Assembly (NCBI GenBank): GCA_963169355.1
Contig: CAUJCR010000013.1
Coordinates: 56,273 to 120,272 of the forward strand
DNA length: 64,000 nucleotides
Direction of reading: 5' to 3'
Source of the DNA: Bacteroidota bacterium
GTDB lineage: Bacteria; Bacteroidota; Bacteroidia; B-17B0; Aurantibacillaceae
The notes under the pieces were generated by a model that ran no database searches, was not told where the DNA came from, and saw nothing but the letters and a program-made list of their open reading frames with translations. Below are positions 6,493 through 64,000 of the stretch, one piece after another. How positions within the stretch are numbered: the first letter of the stretch is position 1; the number at the start of each line of letters is the position of its first letter. Both the position numbers and the translations under genes were made by a program.

Positions 6493-6625
6493 AGTTGCAA
6501 AGGTAATTTTTTATAGGAGTTAGCTATGATTTTACTGTATTTTGTCAATAAATTTGAAAAATATTGGCTTTAATTTTTGAATTATATATTTTTTTATATA
6601 CTTTTCCAAAAAAAATAAATAGGTT

Positions 6626-7579
6626 ATGTCGAAAAAAACAAAGGCTTCGTCAAAGATTAAAAAAGCAACATCTAAAAAAGTTGTCTCTAAATCAAAACCT
6701 GCAGCTAAAAAGAAAGCAGTTGCTAAAAAACCTGTTGCAAAGAAAAAGGCTGTTAAACCTACTATAAAAAAGGTAGTAAAAAAGCCTGTTGCTAAAAAAA
6801 CGACTAAACCTGTTAAAAAGCAAGTTGCTAAAAAGAAAGTAGTTAAACCTATTAAAAAAGCAGTTGCTAAAAAAACTATTAAGGCAATTAAAAAGGTTGC
6901 TAAAAAAGTAGCAACAAAAAAAGTAGTTGCTAAGAAAAAGGTAGTTAAAAAACCAGTAATAAAGAAGAAAACAGCTAAGAAACTAGCTAAACCTGTAAAA
7001 AAGGCAGTGGCTAAAAAAGTACTTAAACCTGTTGTGAAAAAACAGGCTCCTAAAAAAGTAGCTAAAGTAGTTGCTAAAAAAGTAGAAGCAATAAAACCAA
7101 AAGTAACGATTAAGCCTGTTATTCAGGAACCTATAAAAAAAGTTGCAGCTGTTGTAAATCCATATCAATCTGCACCTGTTAAGTTTGATAAGGAACCTGC
7201 AGGAAAATTTGAAATGGAGTTTTTTGTAAGAGCTTCTGAGGATATGGTATATGAGTTTGTAAGTACTGAAAGTGGACTATCTGAGTGGTTTTGTGATGAT
7301 GTAACCATTCGTGATGGTATTTATTCTTTTGTATGGGACGGACACACACAACAAGCTCGCCTTATTAAAGATAATCCGCCGTTTGCTATACGTTTTCAGT
7401 GGTTAGATAAAACAGATGGAAGCTATTTTGAATTTAGAACACAAAAAGATGAATTAACTAATGATATGTCGTTGATAATCACTGATTTCGCTTCTGATAG
7501 GGCAGAAGAGCTTTCAGCTAAATCTTTATGGCAAAGTCAGGTTAATAAGTTGTTTCACGTCTTAGGTTCGGTATCTTAA
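6626..7579 (+). CDS. Histone-H1-like Lys/Ala/Val-rich tail fused to a START-like (SRPBCC) domain
   Basis: N-terminal ~180 aa of KKxVAKK repeats; C-terminal KFEMEFFVRASEDMVYEFVSTESGLSEWFCDDV...VWDGHTQQARLI as in Bacteroidota START-like proteins. Confidence 0.8.
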   Translation: MSKKTKASSKIKKATSKKVVSKSKPAAKKKAVAKKPVAKKKAVKPTIKKVVKKPVAKKTTKPVKKQVAKKKVVKPIKKAVAKKTIKAIKKVAKKVATKKVVAKKKVVKKPVIKKKTAKKLAKPVKKAVAKKVLKPVVKKQAPKKVAKVVAKKVEAIKPKVTIKPVIQEPIKKVAAVVNPYQSAPVKFDKEPAGKFEMEFFVRASEDMVYEFVSTESGLSEWFCDDVTIRDGIYSFVWDGHTQQARLIKDNPPFAIRFQWLDKTDGSYFEFRTQKDELTNDMSLIITDFASDRAEELSAKSLWQSQVNKLFHVLGSVS

Positions 7580-7726
7580 TAATTCAAACGCCTATTTTAC
7601 TCAATTATTATAGTTGAAATTCATAAATATTAGTATTTTAGCCAAGTATTAACTTAAACTTTTATTCCTATAGCATAGACATCTACTTAAATTTTTTAAT
7701 ACTATCATTTAAAATTAGTAGTTCTT

Positions 7727-56220: not shown

Positions 56221-56345
56221 ATTACAATTGGGTTAGTTTAAAAAATTAAGAAACAAATAAACTAAAAAAATGGCATTTTTACTATGAATACCTATAATTT
56301 TTAAACTGATTTATTTTAGTTTTACCTCTAGGCTTGTCATTTGAT

Positions 56346-56480
56346 GCGAAAGTACCGTTATTTCTTTACAACTTAAATGTGCAACTAAGATTCACCAAAA
56401 CCACTCTATTTTATTGCCTAATTCGAGGCTCTTGTATTAGAATTTATAAATGATTAACTTCGTTAATTAATAAGTTGGCA
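56346..56480 (+). repeat. ~135-bp repeat upstream of the nuclease gene, related to 63735-63869
   Basis: GAAAGTACCG...GTGCAACTAAGATTCACCAAAACCACTCTATTTTATT...AAATGATTAACTTCGTTAATTAATAAGTTGGC. Confidence 0.8.
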
Positions 56481-56525
56481 GCAATGCTATGAAGACCATC
56501 TTCGCTAAATAAACAGACGTAAACA

Positions 56526-58469
56526 ATGACAATCGAGGACTTTTTGAAAATCGTATGGGAGACACGGCAGACAAATCCATATTTGTTTTATGGTGGCGTG
56601 ATAGTAATAATATTATTGATTTTCTTGGCATATAAAGCGTTTAAAAAACGTAGACAAAATGCTAAAATAAAAGAGAATGCAAAAATTGAAGCAGAACGCT
56701 TAATAAAACTCGAATCGGACAGAAAAGCAAAGCAATATGCTGACAAACTTGCTTTAGAACATAAGCAAAATCTACAAAAAGAGACTACTTTAAAAGAACA
56801 AACAAAGCTAAAAGTTCAAGCAGAAAATCTAGAAAGAGAGGCGGATAAAAAAGCATCAACAGAAATAAAATCACCGACTGAGGACGTTAAAAAAACATTA
56901 GAAGAAAAAAAAGAAGCCAAGTCTGATATACCAAAAAGACAAACTGTTACACCTTACATTGATACAAATGAAGTTCAAGTTAAAATAATTAAATCTGTAC
57001 CTGAACCAGGTTCTTCAACGGCCAAAAGAATAGGCTATTTGCCAAGCGACAAATATGTACAAACAGAACCCTATAAATATGCTGTGGTAAAAATGCCACA
57101 AAAAAATAGTCTAATAAAATTTCCTCGCAAAGGTCGATCTGACAAAAAAGGATATAAAGAAGATGATTTCTTAATTCATTTAAACCGACATTTCAAATCA
57201 ACTTTTAGCGTTTTCAATGACAGGCATATTCCAACCGAAAACGGAAGACCCTATGAACCAGACTTTGTTCTTTCATCTGAAAAAGACAACAAAAATATTT
57301 TCATCAATATTGAAATTGATGAGCCTTACGATGGCTGGTTGAGGACACCCACTCACTGTATTGGAGAAAATGATTTAAGGGACAATTTTTTTACGAAAAG
57401 AGGATGGATAGTTATTCGTTTTGCTGAAATACAAATTCATTGTGAACCTAAAAAATGTTGTGCTTACATCGCTAAAGTTATTCATTCAATTGATTCGACA
57501 TTTAATTCAGACCTACTTAATGAAGTTATTCCAAATCAAGTTGAACAATGGGATAATTTACAATCAAAAAAGTGGGCATCAGATAAGTTTCGTGAAAAAT
57601 ATTTAGATATTGAAAATTTTGGAAAACGACCGAATGTAATAACAGAGTACGAAATAGTTGAATCAACCGCAGATAAGGAAGTTGAAAATGAGATGCCAAA
57701 AGTCAAGAATAAAACCATAAGTGACAATGGACTATTAGCGTCTAAAAATATTGATAACCGGGACAAGCGAATTAAGTTTGACCCAACAGAGCATAGGTAT
57801 TTTATTGATGGCAATCCTGACACTATTTCTGTGACACAACTCATTGATAAATTTTTCCCAGAGTTTGATGCTCCATATTGGGGACCAATAAAGGCAGCAC
57901 AACGAGGAATTTCTACAGAGGAAATTTTAGCTGAGTGGGAGGTTAAAAGAATTGATTCGGCAAATAAAGGAACTGCCTTACATGAAGCAATCGAAAATTA
58001 CTATAACAACAAAAGTCATAATTCAAGTACCAAAGAATTTAGCCATTTCCTTTCATTCAAACAGAGGTATAACGGGATGACACCTTACAGGTCTGAATGG
58101 AGGATATTTGATGAAGATTTAATGGTGGCAGGTACAATTGACATGGTCTACAAAAAGGAGGATGGTTCATTATATATGTTTGATTGGAAACGCAGTGAGA
58201 AAGTTGTGAATAACGATGGAACAATTAAGAATGACACATTTCAATTTGCATTTGGGGAGCTTAGCCATCTAGGCGACAATAGTTATAATCGATATTGTTT
58301 GCAACAAAATATATATAAAGCAATATTAGAGAAAAGATATAAACATAAAATTAGCTCAATGAATCTTTTGGTAATGCATGAAGCATACGACCGATATCAC
58401 CATATCAAAATACCAAATATGGACAAAGAAATTAACTATATATTTAACTATGCTTTACTTACAAGGTAA
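56526..58469 (+). CDS. Predicted membrane-anchored protein with two PD-(D/E)XK-like nuclease domains
   Basis: N-terminal TM (YLFYGGVIVIILLIFLAYKAF), charged coiled coil, Vsr/DUF559-like module (RPYEPDFVLSSE...NIEIDEPYDG...RGWIVIRFAE), RecB/Cas4-like module (GTALHEAIENYY...GTIDMVYKKEDGSLYMFDWKRSEK...QQNIYKAIL). Confidence 0.65.
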   Translation: MTIEDFLKIVWETRQTNPYLFYGGVIVIILLIFLAYKAFKKRRQNAKIKENAKIEAERLIKLESDRKAKQYADKLALEHKQNLQKETTLKEQTKLKVQAENLEREADKKASTEIKSPTEDVKKTLEEKKEAKSDIPKRQTVTPYIDTNEVQVKIIKSVPEPGSSTAKRIGYLPSDKYVQTEPYKYAVVKMPQKNSLIKFPRKGRSDKKGYKEDDFLIHLNRHFKSTFSVFNDRHIPTENGRPYEPDFVLSSEKDNKNIFINIEIDEPYDGWLRTPTHCIGENDLRDNFFTKRGWIVIRFAEIQIHCEPKKCCAYIAKVIHSIDSTFNSDLLNEVIPNQVEQWDNLQSKKWASDKFREKYLDIENFGKRPNVITEYEIVESTADKEVENEMPKVKNKTISDNGLLASKNIDNRDKRIKFDPTEHRYFIDGNPDTISVTQLIDKFFPEFDAPYWGPIKAAQRGISTEEILAEWEVKRIDSANKGTALHEAIENYYNNKSHNSSTKEFSHFLSFKQRYNGMTPYRSEWRIFDEDLMVAGTIDMVYKKEDGSLYMFDWKRSEKVVNNDGTIKNDTFQFAFGELSHLGDNSYNRYCLQQNIYKAILEKRYKHKISSMNLLVMHEAYDRYHHIKIPNMDKEINYIFNYALLTR

Positions 58470-58500
58470 CGACAATATAGGACATAGAAGCAATGGTGGT

Positions 58501-58731
58501 AACATATAGGAATTAAACAAACCTCTGCTTCAATTTAATCCTGTTCCGTAAGAAGCTCTTATACTTTAAAAAATAGATTTAAGTTCTTGCAGTTTGGTAA
58601 TATGCAAATAAGCATCTTGTAGGCTGGCGGCTTGTTCGGCTAAATGAATGGCTTTCCATTGGGCGTTGATAGCACCAAAAATATCTGCCTCTAAGTTATC
58701 GCCAATCATCAAACAGTCGTCGGCGGTAGAT
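58501..58731 (+). repeat. 231-bp duplicate of the HAD gene 3' end and its flank (copy of 61310-61540)
   Basis: Gapless alignment by eye with 61310-61540, 16 mismatches; minus strand reads ...DDCLMIGDNLEADIFGAINAQWKAIHLAEQAASLQDAYLHITKLQELKSIF*. Confidence 0.92.
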
Positions 58732-58752: not shown

Positions 58753-58922
58753 AACCCAGATTGTGCATTAGAAATTAGTAATGAGAGCTAAAAGCCCAAT
58801 AAAATATGAACTTTTACGAATGAAGCGTAGCCACTGCTACGGTGATTGAGAAAAAGTTGCGAAGCTTCATATTTTGCAGGGCTTTTAGCTCGTAATAGAA
58901 TTACTAATGTATAATCTGGGTT
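58753..58922 (+). repeat. 170-bp foldback repeat, copy C
   Basis: AACCCAGATTGTGCATTAGAAATT...AATTACTAATGTATAATCTGGGTT. Confidence 0.95.
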
Positions 58923-58958: not shown

Positions 58959-58991
58959 TTTGCGGTGAAAAAATTGTATTTTTACCGCAAA
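58959..58991. promoter_or_regulatory. Palindromic candidate operator upstream of the Fic gene
   Basis: TTTGCGGTGAAAAA-ATTGT-ATTTTTACCGCAAA inverted repeat 15 bp before the ATG, then a partial third GTGCGGTGGTAAAATG. Confidence 0.6.
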
Positions 58992-59006
58992 TTGTGCGGT
59001 GGTAAA

Positions 59007-60146
59007 ATGTATATACACGAAATAGAAAATTGGACAAACTTTGTTTGGGACAACAACAAGATTCTTCCAAAGTTAGCTTCCGTAAGGCATTTACAAGGTC
59101 GTTTACTTGGTCGTATGGAAAGTTTAGGTTTCGATTTTACCGAACGTGCCACATTAGAATCACTTATTTTAGAAGTCGTAGATACATCAAGAATTGAAGG
59201 CGAATTTTTAAACCCCGAATTAGTTCGTTCATCTATTGCCCGAAAATTAGGGATTGAAAATGTAGAGTTTGTAAGAACATCCCGAAATATTGAGGGAATT
59301 GTTGATGTGATTTTAGATGCTACCCAAAATTTTGACCAACCACTTACACAAGTTCGGCTTTTTGGTTGGCATAATTCACTATTTCAAACAGGTTATAGTG
59401 GTTATGTGCCGATTGATGTTGCCAAATATCGTTCAGGAGGAATGAAAGTAGTTTCAGGGAACTTTGGTAGAGAAAAAATACATTTTGAAGCACCAACTGC
59501 CGAACGAGTTCCATACGAAATGGAACAATTTTTAGATTGGTTGAATAACGATAACAGTTTGGATTTGGTGCTAAAATCTATCATTGCACATTTTTGGTTT
59601 GTAACTATACACCCATTTGATGATGGTAACGGACGAATTGCAAGAGCAATTTTGGATATGTTTTTAGCCAAAAGCGATCGCAGTAAAATTCGTTTTTACA
59701 GTTTATCAAACCAAATTTTCAAAGAACACAAAAAATACAACAGCACAATTGAGAAAACACAAAAAGGAAAACAAGATATTACGCCATATTTAGATTGGTT
59801 TTTGGGCTGCTTTGAAAGAGCATTGTTGGCTAGTGAACAAAATTTGGAAATAATTTTGGATAAAGCTCACTTTTGGGATAAACATAAATTAACCAACATC
59901 AACGACAGGCAAAGGCTTGTAATCAATTATTTGTACGATAGCTACGATAAAGAAATTGGATTTTTGCGGACTTCTACTTATGCGAAACTTGCCAAATGTT
60001 CTAATGACACAGCTTTACGTGATTTACAGGACTTAGTTAAAAAAGAAATGCTAAAATCAGAAGATACAGGAAAGAAAACAAATTATATAGTCGTTAGTCC
60101 AAAAGGCATAAGAATACCGAAAAAAATAACTACCGCTAACATATAA
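59007..60146 (+). CDS. Fic family protein (DUF4172 N-terminal domain, C-terminal winged HTH-like region)
   Basis: MYIHEIENWTNFVWDNNKILPKLASVRHLQGRLLGRM; HPFDDGNGRIAR Fic motif. Confidence 0.92.
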   Translation: MYIHEIENWTNFVWDNNKILPKLASVRHLQGRLLGRMESLGFDFTERATLESLILEVVDTSRIEGEFLNPELVRSSIARKLGIENVEFVRTSRNIEGIVDVILDATQNFDQPLTQVRLFGWHNSLFQTGYSGYVPIDVAKYRSGGMKVVSGNFGREKIHFEAPTAERVPYEMEQFLDWLNNDNSLDLVLKSIIAHFWFVTIHPFDDGNGRIARAILDMFLAKSDRSKIRFYSLSNQIFKEHKKYNSTIEKTQKGKQDITPYLDWFLGCFERALLASEQNLEIILDKAHFWDKHKLTNINDRQRLVINYLYDSYDKEIGFLRTSTYAKLAKCSNDTALRDLQDLVKKEMLKSEDTGKKTNYIVVSPKGIRIPKKITTANI

Positions 60147-60183
60147 AAATTAAACAACTCTCCATTTCAATTTAATCCTGTGC
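60137..60183 (+). repeat. 47-bp cassette 3' flank motif, copy after Fic gene
   Basis: AACATATAaaaATTAAACAAcTCTCcaTTTCAATTTAATCCTGTGCC, gapless match to 58501-58547 and 61310-61356. Confidence 0.8.
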
Positions 60184-60363
60184 CTGTCTGCCTTTGGCAG
60201 GTTGAATGAAGTAACTGACTTATAATTCATTTTTTATTCGTACATTTATTTCATAAATAACAAACAGTTTGTGTTAATTACATTGAGTTTTTTCATAGGC
60301 TGCCGTTAGTAGCAAGCGGTGTAAAAATATGTGTAGAAAATTTGACATAAGTTATAGAAGTTT

Positions 60364-61311
60364 ATGAAATCAAAAGTTCGAAAATATCCGGTTATTACAT
60401 TCTTCGCTTTATCTGTTCTAATCTCGTGGGCTGGCTGGGTTCCTTATGCTGCTTCAAAAGCAGGATTTTTGAATTTAAATATTCCATCCGAAATTATCTG
60501 GCTGGCAGAATTTGGACCATCACTTTCTGCAATAATTATTACTGCATTAATTTATGGAAAGACTAACACTATAAGTTTACTTAAACGTCTTCTGATATGG
60601 AAGACAAGTATTAAATGGTATTTATTTGCTATAGTGGTTACTCCAATTTTAATTTTAGCATCGATTGGAATTGATATTTTATTTTTTAATACAACCTACG
60701 ACTTTTCGCTATTGAGTCAATGGGATACCAACTTTATTAATCGTACGGAAGCTTTTACTCCTTCAATGGGACTTATTACTCAATTAGTATCCTTTATGCA
60801 CACAGGGACTTTTGCAACAGGACTTGTCTTTTTAGTATTAGCCTTAACCAATGGCGGTCTTTCGGAGGAAATAGGCTGGCGTGGATTTGCTTTAAATAAA
60901 TTTCAGGACAAACCATACAACTTTTTAGTTTCAAGTTTATTCGTTGCTTTATTATGGGCTTTTTGGCACACAGGTACACTATTTTGGCAAACAGTGTTTA
61001 CCTCAACTTTTTCAGAAGGAATTTCATTTGCAGCAGTCTATCTTTTTCAATATCTATTACTCGTAATCCCTTTGTCTGTGCTATATACGTTTTTATATAA
61101 TGCGACAAATGGGAGCATTCTTCTTTCAATAATATTACACGCCTTTTATAATATTTCAATTTCCATATTTGCAACAGCTCTACCGAATTTCCCAATGATA
61201 ATTTTAGTTATTTTGCTTTGGATATTTGCAATTTTACTGACAATTATTCTATGGAAAAATAGTAAATACAACAAGACATATCGCAATGAAACTAATGTTG
61301 CCAGCAACTAA
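60364..61311 (+). CDS. CPBP family intramembrane glutamic endopeptidase
   Basis: LSEEIGWRGFALNKFQ; LWAFWHTGTLFW; SIILHAFYNISI. Confidence 0.9.
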   Translation: MKSKVRKYPVITFFALSVLISWAGWVPYAASKAGFLNLNIPSEIIWLAEFGPSLSAIIITALIYGKTNTISLLKRLLIWKTSIKWYLFAIVVTPILILASIGIDILFFNTTYDFSLLSQWDTNFINRTEAFTPSMGLITQLVSFMHTGTFATGLVFLVLALTNGGLSEEIGWRGFALNKFQDKPYNFLVSSLFVALLWAFWHTGTLFWQTVFTSTFSEGISFAAVYLFQYLLLVIPLSVLYTFLYNATNGSILLSIILHAFYNISISIFATALPNFPMIILVILLWIFAILLTIILWKNSKYNKTYRNETNVASN

Positions 61312-61540
61312 CATATAGCCATTAAACAAAGCTCTGCTTCAATATAATCCTATGCCGTATGAAGTTCTTATTCTTTAAAAAATAGATTTAAGTTCTTGCA
61401 GTTTACTAATATGTAAATAAGCATCTTGTAGACTGGCGGCTTGTTCGGCTAAATGAATGGCTTTCCATTGGGCGTTGATAGCACCAAAAATATCTGCCTC
61501 TAAGTTATCGCCAATCATCACGCAGTCGTCGGCGGTGGAT
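61310..61540 (+). repeat. Partner of the 231-bp repeat at 58501 (includes HAD gene 3' end)
   Basis: See 58501-58731. Confidence 0.92.
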
Positions 61541-63530: not shown

Positions 63531-63734
63531 TTTAATTTATTTAGAGCGCAAAGATACATTTTTTGTTGTGATTACAAAAAATCCAATTAATTCAAAATTC
63601 GTTAGTATCTTTATCCGTGGCTTTTCAATTAATATCAAATGTAAGTGTGATTTAGGCTAAAGTTGTTTAGTGATTTTTTATCATTTGGAAGCGGAAAAAG
63701 TAAAACAAGATAAATCAATAGTTATCATCTAATG

Positions 63735-63869
63735 AGAAAGTACTGCTAATTTTTAACAACTACAAATGCGCAACTGAAATTCACCTAAAACACTCTATTT
63801 CATTGGCCAAATTAAGATTCTTTTATTTGAATTTAAAAATGATTAACTTCGTCAATTAATAAGTTAGCG
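63735..63869 (+). repeat. ~135-bp repeat related to 56346-56480
   Basis: GAAAGTACTG...GCGCAACTGAAATTCACCTAAAACACTCTATTTCATT...AAATGATTAACTTCGTCAATTAATAAGTTAGC. Confidence 0.8.
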
Positions 63870-63897
63870 GTCAGCTTAAAAACCGACACAAAAAATT

Positions 63898-64000
63898 ATG
63901 ACAGACAGAGAATATTTAAAACAATTAAGAACACCGACAAAAGACAATCCGCTTAGAATTTTAATGAGTGCTTGTTTATCGGGAATTACTTGCGGTTATG
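63898..64000 (+). CDS. DUF523 family protein, N-terminal fragment (truncated by window end)
   Basis: MTDREYLKQLRTPTKDNPLRILMSACLSGITCGY resembles the DUF523 start (SACLLG..CRYDG). Confidence 0.65.
   Translation, partial: MTDREYLKQLRTPTKDNPLRILMSACLSGITCGY

Follow-up and report, generated by a model that had tools for sequence, protein, structure and literature searches.

A predicted membrane-anchored protein with two PD-(D/E)XK-type modules: a candidate defence nuclease on a cassette-like unit in Bacteroidota

What might a bacterium gain from a protein in which a predicted membrane anchor is joined to two nuclease-like modules? The question arises from a single gene in a 64,000-nt stretch of DNA from a Bacteroidota bacterium; the whole of this stretch is referred to as the window, and the positions given below are window positions unless another contig or locus is named. 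Judging from sequence and predicted structure, we lean towards a membrane-tethered defence nuclease that is carried on a mobile cassette and would attack entering or end-exposed DNA. The protein probably represents a type of bacterial immune nuclease that has yet to be described. The initial annotation had already proposed a defence-type protein; it did not extend to the helicase that accompanies relatives or to the gene being a cassette.

Domain architecture and predicted folds

The open reading frame given in the initial annotation is exact in coordinates and length and opens with ATG (Table 1), and all of the motifs quoted for it are located in the translation. In module 1, these are PDFVL (P245-D246), NIEIDEPYDG (E263-x-D265-E266) and RGWIVIRFAE (W294, R298); in module 2, they are GTALHEAIENYY (H486), GTIDMVYKK (D539), FDWKRSE (D553-W-K555) and QQNIYKAIL (Q594, Y597). 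Against Pfam, the protein gives just a sub-threshold match to PDDEXK_1 (E 0.0027), and none of the 5027 PADLOC models matches it at E up to 1.

Table 1. Features of the nuclease gene and its surroundings, in window positions.
Feature	Position	Strand	Basis or remark
647-aa TM / coiled-coil / DUF559-like / RecB-MGME1-like nuclease gene	56526..58469	+	ATG start; ORF and prediction
One long helix, residues 18-110, including TM segment and charged coiled-coil-like stalk (~90-residue charged helix)	56577..56855	+	AlphaFold2 pLDDT about 60-74; composition
TM helix, residues 20-38 (predicted)	56583..56639	+	FKKRRQ after, acidic N-terminus before; N-out/C-in by positive-inside rule
Disordered linker, residues 111-205	56856..57140	+	pLDDT < 50 at 109-210
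Module 1: DUF559/Vsr-type PD-(D/E)XK domain, residues ~206-325	57141..57500	+	Conservation, AlphaFold2, Foldseek
Conserved WDxxQ...W...REKYL helices between modules, residues 342-360	57549..57605	+	Conservation in relatives
Module 2: RecB/Cas4/MGME1-type exonuclease domain, residues ~408-647	57747..58466	+	Profile match, conservation, AlphaFold2, Foldseek
'L-type' 146-nt repeat	56334..56479	+	Ends at left border of L002 homology
'R-type' 48-nt repeat, att-like	58500..58547	+	Directly 3′ of nuclease gene; right border of L002 homology at 58504
Duplicated fragment of HAD gene 3′ end	58548..58731		93% identical to 61357-61540
Fic/DUF4172 gene, next cassette-like unit	58965..60146	+	R-type repeat overlaps its stop at 60137-60184
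CPBP (Rce1-like) protease gene, third cassette-like unit	60364..61311	+	R-type repeat at 61309-61356

The putative membrane helix is the sole hydrophobic segment of the protein (Kyte–Doolittle mean 2.29), and 46% of the segment that follows it is K, E, D or R. Hydropathy, composition and the predicted long helix all agree with the N-terminal membrane helix and charged coiled coil of the initial annotation; by prediction only, the remainder of the protein would be cytoplasmic. N-terminal matches to TIGR03752, RNase Y and DPY30 reflect coiled-coil composition and were rejected.

The AlphaFold2 model of the whole protein, built from an alignment of nine sequences, comprises a helix at 18-110, disorder at 109-210 and two α/β cores at pLDDT mostly 70-90. 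Its mean pLDDT is 62.8 and its pTM 0.42, so that it says nothing on the relative placement of the domains. Structure prediction had been suggested as a check at the outset; it gives PD-(D/E)XK-type cores in both modules, and the best or near-best solved folds that Foldseek finds for them are PD-(D/E)XK nucleases.

Module 2 is the more readily classified half. Residues 408-634 match the exonuclease family PHROG_298 (E 2e-25), and the predicted core has the α-β-β-β-α-β order of the PD-(D/E)XK superfamily. The H, D, D-x-K and QxxxY motifs occur in this order and are invariant in the alignment of relatives, in which H486, E524, D539, D553, K555, Q593 or Q594, and Y597 are kept. When the whole model is searched against the PDB, human MGME1 comes first (E 1.5e-6), followed by EXO5 and SSO0001 (Cas4); these best solved folds show that the RecB/Cas4-like call was right. 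For module 2, the best solved folds are complexes of MGME1 with ssDNA, and MGME1-type nucleases act on single strands. The likeness to the MGME1 and RecB-Cas4 family (PDB 5zyu, 4ic1) lies in the fold and the four motifs; the differences are a sequence identity of just 16%, the fusion of module 2 to a TM/DUF559 half, and the fact that no cas1 or cas2 partner was noticed. A CRISPR Cas4 identity was considered and rejected, with weak PADLOC matches in one relative and no cas1 or cas2 in the neighbourhoods read.

Modelled alone, module 1 reaches a mean pLDDT of 80 and a pTM of 0.78. Its sole Foldseek matches in the PDB at E < 0.001 are the R2 retrotransposon endonuclease and Bax1; compared with the putative endonuclease NGO0050 (3hrl), the target-normalised TM-score is 0.77 and the probability 0.99, but E is 0.1. 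The DUF559 profile (PF04480, cut-off 20.6) scores 21.9 bits in relative L078 and 22.7 bits in L150, and does not match the window copy itself. These matches and the PD-(D/E)XK-type fold bear out the Vsr/DUF559-like assignment made earlier. E212, D246, E263, D265, E266, H277 and R285 are kept across relatives. The likeness to DUF559/Vsr-type endonucleases such as 3hrl comprises the fold, an E-x-D ... H ... R ... GW.V.RF pattern and the Pfam matches in relatives, to which the present protein adds conserved EPY..PTH and REKYL features and a membrane anchor.

A DUF559-type fold and an E-x-D...H active-site layout are thus present in module 1, and E-x-D is the usual layout in DUF559-type domains. 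Because it replaces the E-x-K of the canonical (D/E)XK motif, the activity of module 1 is less certain than that of module 2; it may possibly be just a DNA-binding domain. Of the 'dual nuclease' originally proposed, the two PD-(D/E)XK-type folds therefore stand, and the term is certain as a statement about folds only, module 1 being without the canonical lysine.

Across relatives that are 30-45% identical, the active-site residues of both modules vary little or not at all. Compared with the copy in Emticicia aquatica (L003, 77% identity), the codons of the nuclease gene are under purifying selection: dN/dS is about 0.07 overall, dN is 0.09 in each module, and dS exceeds 1 in module 1 and is saturated in module 2. 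The closest copy, at 98% identity, resides in another cassette array on a Bacteroidia MAG contig (L002), and differs from the window copy by a dN of 0.010 and a dS of 0.066. Given this selection, the near-invariant residues and the PHROG_298 match, the motifs go beyond chance. It is highly improbable that the gene is a decaying cassette passenger without current function, even though decay does occur in the family: the Emticicia copy is frameshifted in the coiled-coil repeat, the copy in genome G376 is interrupted within module 1, and in the solo relative L100 DWK has become DWE, with loss of the catalytic lysine, so that module 2 can decay. The window and L002 copies are both intact despite their different surroundings, and dN is far below dS.

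Relatives, helicase partner and genomic neighbours

The nuclease gene is rare and has a sparse accessory distribution. Any match at all is found in 3 of the 88 genomes of its own family, one of these to the N-terminal helix only, and in 10 of 397 across the phylum, partial matches counted. Apart from the L002 and Emticicia copies, full-length relatives are distant (L072, L074, L099, L100 and L101, together with L079 and L080 on viral or mobile contigs); L073 and L075 are interrupted or cut by contig ends. Proteins with module 1 only include L004, L076, L078, L102-L106, L109-L112 and proteins from cyanobacterial plasmids. The C-terminal half is matched (tblastn) in Flavobacterium phages and in huge uncultured phages at 25-32% identity. 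In all, the carriers of the family comprise cassettes, a phage contig, a mobilisable element and plasmids. On cyanobacterial plasmids (L148, L149, L150 and others), TM-anchored DUF559-like proteins are common and are annotated as hypothetical; 26 of 41 matches are predicted to be conjugative.

The N-termini of the relatives differ: a VWA domain with TM helix in L074, a Pro-rich region in L072, a coiled coil in the window and Emticicia copies, two TM helices in L080, and others elsewhere. A Kyte–Doolittle scan finds a TM segment in 19 of 25 module-1 proteins; all TM calls are hydropathy calls, made with no dedicated topology predictor. Membrane tethering is not universal, since three helicase-paired relatives (L079, L099 and L101) have no predicted TM helix.

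This pairing recurs. Of about ten independent full-length loci, five (L072, L074, L079, L099, L101; one of these in a phage contig) have an SF1 helicase gene directly after the nuclease gene, on the same strand and 0-20 bp away. AAA_11/AAA_12 domains were found by scan in the first four, while the L101 helicase was recognised by similarity at the point where the contig ends. No helicase adjoins the window gene or its counterparts in L002, L003, L080 and L100; the SF1 helicases of the window genome are all distant ones (best 32% over part). On a Picosynechococcus plasmid (L150), the set is split: separate genes, next to one another, encode a TM-DUF559 protein, a UvrD/SLFN-type SF1 helicase and a RecB-type nuclease, the first and last being similar to modules 1 and 2, and genes for a DUF262 protein and a DNA methyltransferase lie close by.

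Inspection of the loci of homologues had also been suggested initially and, like the structure predictions, it did not go against the initial reading. Defence genes recur beside homologues: L099 adjoins a UG19 defence reverse transcriptase and an RTas1465-like protein, L101 the type I specificity subunit HsdS, and L105 GmrSD, and L072 is near PDC-M15A. In L106, a three-TM DUF559-like (module-1) protein (6545-7657, minus strand) is encoded between hsdR and hsdS/hsdM in a type I R-M operon. AbiEi/AbiEii-like genes near L074 and L078 were identified by reading only. L100, L103 and L104 have no recognised defence neighbour, and the recurrence is that of the loci read. Together, the helicase pairing, the defence neighbours and the mobility of the family make the defence reading more likely.

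The same observations bear on two alternatives. The protein might be part of a nuclease–helicase for DNA repair or replication (Dna2/AddAB-like) that mobile elements spread for their own recombination and not for immunity. Module 2 does resemble phage recombination exonucleases (PHROG_298, the Flavobacterium phages), and the helicase pairing resembles Dna2 or AddAB; the sparse accessory distribution, the TM anchors and surroundings such as an R-M operon and a defence reverse transcriptase argue against this alternative, which is very unlikely. Alternatively, the defence might be directed not at phage but at plasmids, conjugative DNA or natural transformation, in which ssDNA enters at the membrane. 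The MGME1-ssDNA complexes among the solved folds would suit such a target, as would module-1 relatives on conjugative plasmids, where entry exclusion would pay; yet a phage contig and the vicinity of phage-defence genes are also among the places where the family is found, and a target of this kind is quite unlikely.

Proposed mode of action and known defence systems

For the favoured membrane-tethered defence nuclease, the following sequence of events can be envisaged. The anchor would keep both modules at the inner membrane face, away from the chromosome. The DUF559-like module would bind DNA that crosses the membrane or has exposed ends, and might nick it; the MGME1-like module would then degrade the bound DNA from its ends. 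In relatives, the SF1 helicase may unwind the substrate; the cassette version would work by itself, with ssDNA or previously unwound DNA as its substrate, or would draw on a helicase of the host. The place or time of action may be set by the N-termini, which are exchanged among relatives (coiled coil, VWA, Pro-rich, multi-TM).

Several known systems share parts of this arrangement. For Mokosh, the likeness concerns the partner helicase of relatives (AAA_11/AAA_12), for which MkoA is the best PADLOC match in L072 and L074 (E 1e-59). The Mokosh nuclease belongs to the PLD family, to which neither the window nuclease nor the relatives scanned have a match; the nuclease next to the helicase is a DUF559+RecB protein instead. 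Beside the window gene, an MkoA/MkoC-type helicase is absent, and the SF1 helicases of the genome are just the distant ones mentioned above. Filing under Mokosh was rejected, there being no PLD nuclease and no helicase partner in the window. Hachiman, Gabija and other nuclease–helicase pairs resemble the relatives in gene order (nuclease, then helicase) and in defence surroundings; they differ in nuclease and helicase families and in that the nuclease here is, by prediction, membrane-anchored. The window protein has no Pfam or PADLOC match to HamA (DUF1837) of Hachiman, and no helicase (HamB) neighbour.

The closest parallel in design is SNIPE (TM, DUF4041 and GIY-YIG), a TM-anchored nuclease that cleaves phage DNA while it is being injected (PMC13190303). 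Its anchor protects host DNA from being cut, deletion of the TM helix is reported to be toxic, and the N-terminal region differs from one homologue to the next. Common to both are a single N-terminal TM helix, a cytoplasmic nuclease and an elongated helical middle (all predicted here), variable N-termini with the nuclease region most conserved, and action proposed at the inner membrane. In contrast to SNIPE, the present protein has two PD-(D/E)XK-type modules, and its relatives are paired with a helicase; DUF4041 and GIY-YIG have no Pfam match in the 647-aa nuclease, whose predicted structure is PD-(D/E)XK-like. The resemblance is an analogy of logic only, the proteins being unrelated in sequence. 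If the proposed function is correct, the recently described strategy of attacking phage DNA at the membrane would be served by a second nuclease, unrelated to the first and tied to the nuclease–helicase class of immunity.

The same architecture would also fit abortive infection, in which the tethered nuclease is held inactive until membrane perturbation by phage, or DNA ends, trigger degradation of host and phage DNA and hence cell death. Helicase–nuclease defence complexes that act on damaged DNA exist, as described for Hachiman (PMC12278908), and the exchange of N-termini is reminiscent of sensors being swapped (VWA in L074). A fixed membrane anchor, however, is poorly suited to reaching the chromosome, and in the SNIPE precedent it can serve to prevent self-cleavage (PMC13190303); we regard abortive infection as unlikely.

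Cassette-like setting and mobility

The initial annotation had the gene by itself in a variable accessory slot. Variability of the slot is borne out, but the gene is one of a series of cassette-like units (Table 1). A relative with a 99% identical pntA diverges at 56316 and has restriction-modification-type genes there. Ten congeners share the pntA flank, and none of them (0/10) has the nuclease, Fic, CPBP or the L/R repeats at this site; this comparison shows slot variability, not a clean empty site.

Homology between the window and L002 is confined to 56479-58504, and both limits fall at repeats. The same 48-nt R-type repeat follows the nuclease, Fic and CPBP genes (starting at 58500, 60137 and 61309); the genome has 26 occurrences of it, usually directly behind a gene, and five of them form a run on contig C43. 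Other copies of the L-type repeat lie at 63722-63868, at the contig end, and on contig C41, where the repeat is directly against a gene for a 358-aa tyrosine recombinase (attI-like).

Folding differs between the arrays. The Emticicia array (L003, 1-12128) has at least eight imperfect palindromes with CCAAC...GTTGG ends between same-strand genes, and the four tested fold well as bottom strands compared with shuffles (z −2.3 to −4.3). L002 has three GTAAC...GTTAC-type sites (z −0.5, −2.4 and −3.8). The window repeats are without strong palindromes; shuffled sequences fold at least as well as the 3′ half that was tested (z +0.45), so that the repeats were not accepted as true attC sites and are called att-like. 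Accordingly, the gene is firmly an integron-like cassette in L002 and L003, and provisionally so in the window.

A canonical IntI was also rejected: no recombinase exceeds the TIGR02249 cut-off in the three genomes (those of the window, L002 and L003), and the best ones are without the middle ~60 positions of the IntI model. The C41 recombinase and the R-type sites are possibly a non-canonical integron of Bacteroidota, a phylum with very few complete integrons according to IntegronFinder 2.0 (PMC9024848). In Vibrio and in mobile integrons, cassettes store phage-defence genes, as established in refs 91-93 of PMC12444791. In the present case, a probable defence gene would travel as a cassette in Bacteroidota.

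Taken further, and more tentatively, the protein could be the founding member of an undescribed nuclease–helicase immune family. Members of this family would present a DUF559 nickase and an MGME1-type exonuclease to entering DNA by means of a membrane anchor whose sensor-like N-termini (VWA, coiled coil, Pro-rich, multi-TM) can be exchanged, and the genes would spread as single-gene cassettes through an integron-like Bacteroidota system whose recombinases are without the IntI-specific insert. This is possible, though doubtful.

Some further observations concern the arrays themselves. The region C41:5476-6691 (L041) and the genome-wide R-type sites have the appearance of a cassette system with conserved att-like sites of ~200 nt and the 358-aa tyrosine recombinase, which is without the middle of the IntI model. 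At 63722-64000, upstream of ndk, another gene (MTDREYLKQL...) begins after the second attI-like L repeat, at the contig end. The genes of the Emticicia array include a DUF262-like gene and several hypothetical genes. HAD 3′-end fragments are duplicated together with the att-like repeat (58500-58731 and 61309-61540; also in L059 near 1912), a pattern that recombination at the last cassette might leave if it took them along. A 26-nt inverted repeat (88%), its arms 55 nt apart, lies at 58785-58891, in the interval from the HAD fragment to the Fic gene.
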